A DNA stretch of 64,000 bases, taken from Phycisphaera sp. (GTDB lineage Bacteria; Planctomycetota; Phycisphaerae; Phycisphaerales; UBA1924). The stretch covers positions 2,227,205-2,291,204 of the forward strand of contig CP098402.1 in NCBI GenBank assembly GCA_025916675.1, written 5' to 3'. A program made the translations under genes and the position numbers. Below, piece after piece: positions 37,155-40,958 of the stretch (positions are counted from its first letter, which is position 1; each line of letters opens with the position of its first letter). The notes beneath the pieces were generated by a model. That model saw only the letters and a list, made by a program, of their open reading frames with translations. It ran no database searches and had not been told where the DNA came from.

Positions 37155-38857
37155 ATGCAACGTAACTTCACACGCACCGCCACCGTCCTTCTGGCCGCCC
37201 TGGCCACCACCAATGCGCTCGCCCAACAGGGGCCGGTCTACGTCTCGGCATCGCTGGGCGATGACGCCAACCCCGGCACGCGGGACCTGCCCGTAGCCAC
37301 GCTCGCCCGGGCATCTGCGTTGTACACCGCCGATCGCCCCATCTACGTGGATCAGGGCACCTACGACGCGGGCTCGGTCTTCAGCCAGCAGCAGATCCTC
37401 GGCGGCTTCGATGCGTCCGACGACTGGTCGCGCGATCCCGACGCCAATCGCACCGAGATCCGGCTGTCGAATCCGCTCGTGCAGGGCCGCTTCGGCATCC
37501 TGCTGGACGGCGTCGGCGTCACGGCGACCGGTGTCGTCGGCAACAGCGCGTATGGCCTCTCGTTCTTCGATTGCGCCGACGTGTTCATCAGCAACAGCGA
37601 GTTCATCGCGCGCCAGGCCGCGAACGGCCAGGCCGGCGGCACCGCGGGCAACGGCTCGCGCGGCGAGAACGGCCGGCTCGGTGGCGGCGGTGTCGAGGAC
37701 GACGGCGACCTGTTCTGCTCGACGGGCATACGCCCCAGCGGTGGACGCGGCGGCGCGGGCCCAGGCTTCGCCGGTGGCAAGGGCGGCGATCCGGGGCGTG
37801 ACGATCGGCGGGGCGTGGGCGGAAGCTGGGGGCAGGGCCCCAACCCCGGCGTGGGCGGCTCGGGCGTTCTGGCGGGCTTTGGCAACTGGTGCCCCTTCGA
37901 CCTTCCTGGCCTGCCGTCCTTCCTCGGCGGCGACGGCGGCAACGGCGCCAATGGCCGCGCCGGGTTCCCGGGCGTCGAGGGCAGCCTCTCGGCGGGCCTC
38001 TACACCGGCGGCAACGGCACCGCCGGCGCCCGCGGCGAGCACGGCTCGGGCGGTGGTGGTGGCGGCGGCGGCGGTGGCGGTACCAGCAGCTGCAACAGCT
38101 GGGGCGGCGGTGGCGGAGGCGGCGGCGCCGGTGGCAGCGGCGGCTTTGGCGGATCGGGCGGCCGCGGCGGTGGCGCATCCATCGGCCTTGTCATCCACGA
38201 CTCGACCGGCGTCATCGTGACGGGCTCGACCTTCACGACCGAGGGCGGGGGCAACGGCGGCAACCGTGGCATCGGCGGTCAGGGCGGCATGGGCGGCTCC
38301 GGCGGCGTGTGGGTGTGCACGGCCGGCAACCAGTACGGCGGCTCCAGCGAGCAAGACGACGGCTCCAACGGTGCCCGCGGTGGCAACGGCGGACGCGGCG
38401 GCAACGGCGGCAACGGCGGCGGGGTGCCGGCGGTCCGAGCATCGGCCTGTGGGTCGCCGGAGGCGGTGCGGTCGATCTCACCGACGTGACCTACGACGTC
38501 GGCCCCGCCGGACAAGGCGGCCCCGGCGCGGCGAACGGCAGCCAGGAAGATGCCCGAGGCCCGACCTTCCCTGGCGGCGTCATCCCCCTCGACTGCAACG
38601 AGAACGGCGTCCACGACATCGTCGACATCGCCAACGGCGACAGCCTCGACCTGAACCTCGACAACATCCCCGACGAGTGCCAGGCCCCGGTCTGCCCGGC
38701 CGATCTCGACGGCGACGGCACCCTGAGCATCTTCGACTTCCTGGCGTTCCAGAACGCCTTCGACGCGGGCGATCCCATCGCCGACTTCGACGGCGATGGC
38801 AGCCTGACCATCTTCGATTTCCTGGCGTTCCAGAACGCGTTCGACGCGGGCTGCTGA
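37155..38857 (+). pseudogene. Secreted glycine-rich protein with dockerin-like tail (paralog 2), frameshifted
   Basis: Same architecture as the upstream paralog: signal peptide (cleavage after A-L-A), D-D-A-N-P-G-T, shared N-W-C-P-F-D-x-P-G-L-P-S, Gly-rich middle, shared G-G-S-S-E-Q-D-D-G-S-N. The frame opening at 37155 stops at 38489, but from about 38426 the next frame continues with G-P-S-I-G-L-W-V-A-G-G-G, the D-C-N-E-N-G motif and two dockerin-like loops ending in A-G-C at 38857. Adding one G to the run at 38421-38424 restores a single frame matching the paralog. It may be a real frameshift or a sequencing error. Confidence 0.8.
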
Positions 38858-38872
38858 ACCAAACTGTGGGAG

Positions 38873-39274
38873 CTATCGGGGCGCGATCGCCGTCGCCTCG
38901 ATCTCCACAAGCATCCGCCCATCCACCAGCCCGGCCACCACGAGCAGCGTGGCGGCCGGGCGGATGTCCTTGAACACCTCGCCGTGGGCCTGCCCCACCG
39001 CTTCGGCGTGCGCGGCGTCGGCCACGTACATCCGCGTCGAGACCACGTGCTCCAGCCCGGCACCATGCTCGGCAAGCACCGCGCCGATGCGTTCGAGGAT
39101 CGCCCGCGTCTGCCCACCCGCGTCGCCCTCGCACTCGATCGAGCCATCGGGGTTCATGGCCGTGGTGCCGGCGAAGAAGAAGTCGGTATGAGTTTCGTGG
39201 TCAATCTTGACGCAGCGGCTGTAGCCGTTGGTAGCTTCGTAGGGGCCGTTGGTGGAGATGTTGGTGCGGGTCAT
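38873..39274 (-). CDS. RidA-family enamine/imine deaminase
   Basis: 133 residues. Trimeric Rid proteins hydrolyse reactive 2-aminoacrylate-type enamines released by PLP enzymes. Family features: F-F-A-G-T-T-A-M-N (about 32-40), T-R-M-Y-V-A-D (about 80-86) and the C-terminal M-L-V-E-I-E-A-T-A-I with the conserved Glu. The canonical Arg105-type residue is not in its usual place, so it may be a divergent Rid subgroup. AAGGGG lies upstream of the ATG. It follows kbl and the broken membrane gene on the same strand. Confidence 0.82.
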   Translation of the reverse strand: MTRTNISTNGPYEATNGYSRCVKIDHETHTDFFFAGTTAMNPDGSIECEGDAGGQTRAILERIGAVLAEHGAGLEHVVSTRMYVADAAHAEAVGQAHGEVFKDIRPAATLLVVAGLVDGRMLVEIEATAIAPR

Positions 39275-39283
39275 ACATTCCCC

Positions 39284-39702
39284 TTACGCAACCACTGTCA
39301 CAACCCACAACAGGAGCACCTCGATCGAACCCAGGATTAGGATCTCGAGGAAGGCATCCACGGGGTTCTTGAATCGGAATCGTTGGCGACGGCGTACACA
39401 CAGCACGATGGCAATCAAGTGCATCCCAAGCAACACAGAACAGAACAGAACACCATCAATCCGTCCCAACCCGGATCCGTGAATCCCCGTTGGTAGTATC
39501 TCGCGAGTGGGTTCGCAAGCAAGAGAGCCCAGAACATTGCCATGAGGCTCAGTCCTGTCACCCAGTAGAACTGGCTGGTTGCGGCCCAATGCGCCGGTGG
39601 GGTGCCCGGTGAGGCATCACCCCCACACTCCGGACAGGTCGTTTGCTTGAGACCAGTGAGCTCATAGCCGCAGTGCGGGCAGGTTGGCGGCTTGCGTTTC
39701 AT
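39284..39702 (-). pseudogene. Zinc-ribbon membrane protein interrupted at a TTCTG pentanucleotide repeat
   Basis: As written, ATG 39702 gives 95 residues: a zinc ribbon with C-P-H-C-G-Y-E-L-T-G-L and C-P-E-C-G-G, one hydrophobic helix, then a premature stop at 39415. At 39436-39450 the DNA has three copies of CAGAA (TTCTG on the coding strand). Taking out one five-base copy gives an uninterrupted 137-residue protein with two further transmembrane segments, ending at 39284 just before the ridA ribosome site. It starts five bases after kbl. Planctomycetes have many such zinc-ribbon membrane proteins; function unknown. Confidence 0.7.
39436..39450. repeat. Pentanucleotide repeat (CAGAA)x3 inside a coding region
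   Basis: Three exact tandem copies of CAGAA, extended by CA on the right and A on the left. Copy number decides the reading frame of the zinc-ribbon membrane gene. Confidence 0.85.
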
Positions 39703-39707
39703 GCAGG

Positions 39708-40958
39708 TTACAGCTTCTTCAACGCATCGACAACCCGATCCACATGCTCCTTCGTGTGCACCGCCGACAACTGCAACCGCAGCCGCGCCTCGCCCTCGGG
39801 CACGACGGGGTAGCCAAAGCCAATCACGAACACGCCCAGTTCCAGCAGCCGCTTGCTCATCGCGATGGCCTTGCTCGTCTCGCCAACGATGATCGGGCAG
39901 ATGGCCGTGGGCGAATCGATGACCTCGAAGCCGGCGTTCTTGATCTCGGTGCGCGCGTAGGTGGAAATGTCGCGCAGCGTTTGCACGCGCTCGGGCTCGC
40001 GCATCACGATCTCGATCGCTTTGTTGGCGCTGCACGCGACCGTGCAGGGCAGGGCGTTACTAAACAGCGTCGGCCGGCCGCGCTGGACGATGAGCTCCGT
40101 ACCACGACGACTCCCGGCGATGAACCCGCCCGCGCCGCCGCCCAGGCCCTTGCCCAGCGTGCCGGTGAAGAAGTCAACCTCGCCCAGGCTCGCGTCGTGG
40201 CCATCGGCGCCGGGGCACATGTTGTAATGCTCATGAGTGCCCCGGCCGGAGGCCCCCATCACGCCGTGGGCGTGGCTGTCGTCGACCACAAGCATCGCGT
40301 CGAACTCGTCGCAGAGCTTCCGAAGCGCGGGCAGGTCGGCGATGTCGCCCTCCATGCTGAAGACGCCGTCGGTAACGACCCAGACCTGGCCGGTCACGTC
40401 TGGATTCGCACGCGCCGCTTCGAGCTTCTCGCGCAGGCTGCCCAGGTCGTTGTGCTTGTAGACGCCCTTGATCACACCCTTCTTAATGACGGCCGCCAGG
40501 CGGATGCCGTCGATGATGCAGGCGTGGTTCAGCTCGTCGGACAGCAGCATATCGCCCGGCTCGGCGAACGTGGGGTAGAGCGCCTCGTTCGCCGTCCAGC
40601 AGCTCACGAACGTGTAGCAGCTCTCGGTCCCCATGTACTTGGCGATGGTCTTCTCGATCACCTCGTGGCAATCGAACGTGCCGCAGATGAACCGTACGCT
40701 GGCCGTGCCCGCGCCGTACTTTCGCAGCCCCTCGATGCCTGCCTCGACCACCTCGGGGTGGTTGGCCAGGCCCAGGTAGTTGTTTGAGCACATGCAGATG
40801 ACTTCGCGGTAGCTCCCGTTGGCGTCGCGGAGCCTCACCGTCGGCCCCATCGGGCCGGCCAGCATCTGGAGGTGCTTGTACTGCCCGCCCTCTTCGAGTT
40901 GGGCGAGGATGTCGTCGGTGCGGGCGTTAAAGGGGCGGGTGGCGGTCGTGGCGGTCAT
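39708..40958 (-). CDS. kbl: Glycine C-acetyltransferase (2-amino-3-ketobutyrate CoA ligase)
   Basis: 416 residues, PLP-dependent alpha-oxoamine synthase that cleaves 2-amino-3-ketobutyrate with CoA to glycine and acetyl-CoA in threonine breakdown. The PLP lysine is Lys270 in F-T-G-T-L-G-K-G-L-G-G, the ring-contact Asp is in V-V-D-D-S-H-A-H-G, and C-S-N-N-Y-L-G-L (57-64) is family-typical. Close to Kbl rather than to KAS/BioF on the full-length pattern, but the oxoamine synthases are similar, so some doubt remains. No tdh is adjacent. Followed by the broken membrane gene and ridA. Confidence 0.88.
   Translation of the reverse strand: MTATTATRPFNARTDDILAQLEEGGQYKHLQMLAGPMGPTVRLRDANGSYREVICMCSNNYLGLANHPEVVEAGIEGLRKYGAGTASVRFICGTFDCHEVIEKTIAKYMGTESCYTFVSCWTANEALYPTFAEPGDMLLSDELNHACIIDGIRLAAVIKKGVIKGVYKHNDLGSLREKLEAARANPDVTGQVWVVTDGVFSMEGDIADLPALRKLCDEFDAMLVVDDSHAHGVMGASGRGTHEHYNMCPGADGHDASLGEVDFFTGTLGKGLGGGAGGFIAGSRRGTELIVQRGRPTLFSNALPCTVACSANKAIEIVMREPERVQTLRDISTYARTEIKNAGFEVIDSPTAICPIIVGETSKAIAMSKRLLELGVFVIGFGYPVVPEGEARLRLQLSAVHTKEHVDRVVDALKKL

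Follow-up and report, generated by a model that had tools for sequence, protein, structure and literature searches.

Bacterial tandem arrays of three units can be strong hot spots of insertion and deletion. In the portion of PMC3485313 drawn on here, (CTGG)x3 in lacI is reported as the main insertion/deletion hot spot of that gene in P. putida; the paper also cites earlier work that found this hot spot in E. coli lacI. Phase-variable genes offer a second point of comparison. The excerpt of PMC3711429 used here cites Haemophilus influenzae mod, in which AGTC is repeated more than 30 times. Its rule for ascribing a frame break to phase variation asks for repeats close to the break and for an earlier link between phase variation and members of the gene cluster.

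Here we describe a TTCTG array in a small zinc-ribbon gene of a planctomycete; the window, in what follows, is the whole 64-kb stretch of DNA that was analysed. Like the lacI array as described in that portion of PMC3485313, it is a three-unit coding repeat in which gain or loss of a unit shifts the reading frame. Unlike lacI, in which three units are in frame, the three-unit state here is the broken one; and whereas the mutation spectra of lacI have been measured, the window gene is known from sequence alone. We take the lacI hot spot as a precedent, not as proof, for what may have happened at the TTCTG array. With slipped-strand phase-variable genes such as mod, the window gene has in common a tandem repeat inside the coding frame, built of units not divisible by three. 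We think it probable that a single slippage event added one TTCTG unit to a dispensable, lineage-specific gene copy, which is now frameshifted.

The features of the locus, in window coordinates and in the order in which the minus strand is read, are as follows.

39708..40958, minus strand: kbl-like gene (aminotransferase class I/II; PF00155, 7.8e-45), the upstream flank
39415..39702, minus strand: 95-residue open reading frame as assembled, with a CxxC...CxxC zinc ribbon, one hydrophobic segment and an out-of-frame tail
39435..39452, minus strand: period-5 run with TTCTG on the coding strand, 18 nt or 3.6 units; the site of the frame break
39284..39450, minus strand: remainder of the gene downstream, in another frame, with two hydrophobic segments; matched by a two-homologue profile (E=1.9e-7, six-frame translation of the window)
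39422..39424, minus strand: ATG of the downstream frame, overlapping the end of the 95-residue frame; a possible re-initiation point, absent from homologues
38873..39274, minus strand: ridA (Ribonuc_L-PSP; PF01042, 1.9e-21), the downstream flank

The kbl-like gene presumably encodes a glycine C-acetyltransferase. Within the array, three complete units read CAGAA on the plus strand (39436-39440, 39441-39445 and 39446-39450; n = 3) and TTCTG on the coding strand, and the three-unit open reading frame runs on the minus strand from an ATG at 39702 to a stop at 39415, giving 95 residues; the earlier note had placed both the three copies and the stop exactly. Its statement that removal of one copy opens a 137-residue frame was also borne out: with one unit deleted in silico, the frame continues to 39284, nine bases short of the start of the ridA frame at 39274. 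The frame depends on the unit number. Among the forms computed, from one to six units, the five-unit form keeps the homologous frame at 142 aa, and one, four and six units give 163, 168 and 100 aa, respectively. By the Kyte-Doolittle scale, the 95-aa form has one hydrophobic segment (residues 45-66). The 137-aa form has further segments at 79-103, spanning the repeat site, and at 112-137, so that the 'two more hydrophobic segments' of the earlier note were roughly right.

Pfam zinc-ribbon models gave only sub-cut-off matches to the 95-aa form (the highest, to PF13248, scored 19.5 bits where the cut-off is 27), and the two full-length homologues described below likewise had no Pfam zinc-ribbon match above the curated cut-off (2/2). 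As all of these matches fall below the cut-offs, the proteins form a family without a name. Our guess is that the window gene specifies a small membrane-anchored zinc-ribbon protein with an accessory role.

Several lines of evidence identify the frame with two units as the original one, the direction of change being read from two homologues at 39-45% identity. First, both homologues are uninterrupted, and the repeat is absent from the corresponding site in each (2/2). One is a paralogue of 147 aa in the same genome (G000:C1:3082869-3083309) and the other a protein of 145 aa in a sister species (G003, CALCCF010000032.1). The two-unit protein aligns to both with no gap at the repeat, with 54/137 residues identical to the paralogue (39%) and 61/137 to the G003 homologue (45%); across the repeat it reads VFCSVLLGMHLIAI, where the homologues read VFSTAMVGLHAIAL and VILTGVVGLHAIGL.

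Second, BLOSUM62 alignment scores against the paralogue and the G003 homologue rise from 154 and 166 for the three-unit protein to 243 and 286 for the two-unit protein.

Third, a profile built from the paralogue and the G003 homologue alone, with the window gene excluded, matches both halves of the gene in the six-frame translation of the window, the upstream half at 2.5e-26 (profile positions 9-97) and the downstream half at 1.9e-7 (positions 87-141). The two matches lie in different frames, so the three-unit form derives from a longer gene by a frameshift. Downstream of the repeat, no further lesion was seen in the window gene.

The two homologues resemble the window gene in carrying, in the same order, a zinc ribbon, a PPAHWA motif, hydrophobic segments and an RRR stretch; they differ from it in having no repeat, in their intact 147- and 145-aa frames and in their genomic neighbourhood. 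Beside both lies the same type of neighbour gene, which we take to be asparaginase-like. They are 52% identical to each other, above the identity of either to the window gene (39% and 45%), and as they are mutually closest, the window gene did not arise by recent duplication of the paralogue.

Two other descriptions of the locus were set aside. A conserved 95-residue protein, the outcome that the earlier note had set against its own reading, is ruled out, as the close homologues, once aligned, are full length in 2/2. A chance repeat with no frame lesion is ruled out by the homology of the downstream frame to its relatives.

The three-unit form might nevertheless be a working arrangement, a split gene encoding coupled 95- and 46-residue proteins through re-initiation at ATG 39424. 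This ATG starts 7 bases ahead of the stop codon, as in translational coupling, and the downstream frame is open to 39284. Against this, no Shine-Dalgarno-like stretch is evident by eye just upstream of the ATG, the homologues have other codons in its place, and the division would fall inside a hydrophobic segment; we give the split gene very little credence. Programmed ribosomal frameshifting could in principle join the two frames and let the three-unit gene still yield the full-length protein, and by frame arithmetic a -1 shift does give the downstream frame. The whole gene, however, has no XXXYYYZ slippery heptamer (Y = A or T), and the homologues require no shift, which makes this explanation scarcely credible.

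The third unit could also be an error of assembly or consensus, in which case the cell itself would have a normal gene of 137 residues with two units. Such an error would look identical to a real three-unit allele, and a second frame-broken gene lies close by, two breaks in about 1.1 kb being suspicious. The usual assembly error is of the single-base homopolymer type, and an error of a whole five-base unit would be atypical. The genome, moreover, is one 3.6-Mb contig that is 99.97% complete. A test for frame breaks across 36 conserved stretches (54,980 bases) also speaks against an error: a codon-composition filter left six candidates, five of which were judged gene borders or antisense frames and only one, that of the neighbouring gene, a clear break. 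Stop-to-stop frames taken with no filter gave 29 candidate breaks, many of them antisense. We consider an assembly error unlikely.

The neighbouring broken gene encodes a glycine-rich protein (37155-38489, plus strand, in a region extending to 38857). Its frame breaks near 38360-38423, in a G+C-rich stretch adjoined by 2.8 units of CGGCGGCAA (38396-38420), and the tail of the gene, presumably EF-hand/dockerin-like, resumes in another frame; the relative in G005 is one frame of 613 aa.

We compared the array with other short tandem repeats of the genome, in a 464-kb sample made up of the window and 20 stretches of 20 kb (400 kb sampled, or 11%). In the window, the 39435-39452 array is the only pentamer run of at least 15 nt (n = 1), where a first-order Markov model expects on average 0.24 runs of this kind in 64 kb, and 0.02 of at least 18 nt. 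The full 464 kb likewise contains no second such run (n = 1); for a sequence of that length a second-order model gives 1.35 runs of at least 15 nt and, in 20 simulations, 0.0 of at least 18 nt. Three consecutive TTCTG units occur once genome-wide. The other tracts of the sample comprise one trinucleotide run of at least 15 nt, two hexamer runs of at least 18 nt, 12 tetramer runs with three or slightly more units, and three homopolymers that are nine or ten bases long. At 3.6 units and 18 nt the array exceeds chance, and it is short beside the example of more than 30 units in the PMC3711429 excerpt.

These figures bear on whether the gene is a contingency locus in which phase variation of the array alternates the protein between its 95- and 137-residue forms. 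A single unit gained or lost moves the frame, and the loss of one brings back exactly the homologous frame; the array stands alone among pentamer runs of its length in the sample; and repeats lie near the frame break, the first half of the rule given in the excerpt of PMC3711429. Yet the array has just 3.6 units, far fewer than mod as cited there, a single allele is seen, the repeat is neither present nor conserved in the homologues (missing in 2/2), and a comparable repertoire of repeats is absent from the 464-kb sample. Nor is there any sign of a surface-antigen or modification-type function. We judge phase variation at this array to be distinctly unlikely. It is likewise very improbable that the planctomycete has here a minimal contingency locus, a very short pentanucleotide array by which a zinc-ribbon membrane protein, encoded in the same direction as kbl and ridA, would be toggled from truncated to full length and back.

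On the first four of these points, the word 'switches' in the title of the earlier note goes beyond the evidence. Its text had suggested slipped-strand phase variation or a very recent change rather than random decay. A slippage-type gain of exactly one unit is well supported by the homologues, and the single allele counts against switching. Of the two readings, recent change is probably correct and the switch unproven.

The number of units was read from one assembly of the species. A search of the genus for a second allele (7 genomes, the window genome included) found no other copy of the locus, and viral contigs scanned with a query of two units and the 5′ flank gave 0 stretches. A scan of genome contigs returned 12 loci, one of which (L065) is the G003 homologue; the other 11, at E values of 5e-10 or worse and mostly short zinc-ribbon matches, were left out. 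The 95-aa query matched in 61/61 genomes at E up to 1, nearly always through weak zinc-ribbon similarity, and from these matches only two strong ones were used besides the window gene. The DNA query matched in 15/41 genomes, mostly at the flanking ends of kbl and ridA.

The simplest reading is that the frameshift at the TTCTG array is an ordinary mutation, for which one slippage event is enough. For the slippage gain that we favour, the ancestral gene between kbl and ridA would have had about 137 codons and about 2.6 TTCTG units, which may have been a chance product of ordinary codons. The array minus one unit is a 13-nt run, and period-5 runs of at least 13 nt are common in the 464-kb sample (13 in all, the present array counted in), so this inferred parent state is an ordinary one. 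Replication slippage would then have added one unit and shifted the frame, and the shifted frame would truncate the protein at 95 residues, within the second membrane segment. Loss of one unit could revert the gene, as for any short tandem array. The zinc-ribbon gene is likely to be inactive in the cell that was sequenced. The repeat, its two frames and the homology of both to full-length relatives are shown by the sequences; the slippage mechanism, the recency of the event and the loss of function are what we infer.

The surroundings of the gene are variable. In six other genomes of the genus, the slot between kbl and ridA is empty in two (G002 and G005, in which the genes abut or almost do so), holds other sequence in three (G003, G006 and G001, with inserts that have no match to the profile of the zinc-ribbon family at 1e-6), and in one, G004, ridA is absent beside kbl in the stretch fetched. 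Close members of the subfamily were found in 2/163 genomes of the family, the window genome and G003, at the E-value applied. The variable slot and this narrow distribution make the zinc-ribbon gene look dispensable. At 58%, its G+C content is below the 67% of the window. At third positions G+C is about 0.70, where the flanking genes have 0.88-0.90, and this low value could reflect acquired DNA as well as relaxed selection. These features are consistent with a weakly constrained accessory gene or with a recent acquisition.

Compared directly with the corresponding loci (L054-L059), the junction at 39275-39707 of the window has different sequence or none opposite it in all six other species. 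In G001 the insert codes for another protein, one that also has a CxxC...CxxC pair.

The locus provides a clear worked example of a one-unit slippage frameshift in which the original frame could be identified through homologues, and has little wider import. Should a single culture prove to contain both alleles, the locus would count as phase-variable, and among the literature considered no paper on this lineage names the subject in its title. Weak zinc-ribbon matches are abundant in each genome, with 48 in the window genome (G000) at E up to 1, which suggests that the order holds a large and varied set of small zinc-ribbon proteins. Within the genus, the kbl-ridA junction is a slot where small genes change.
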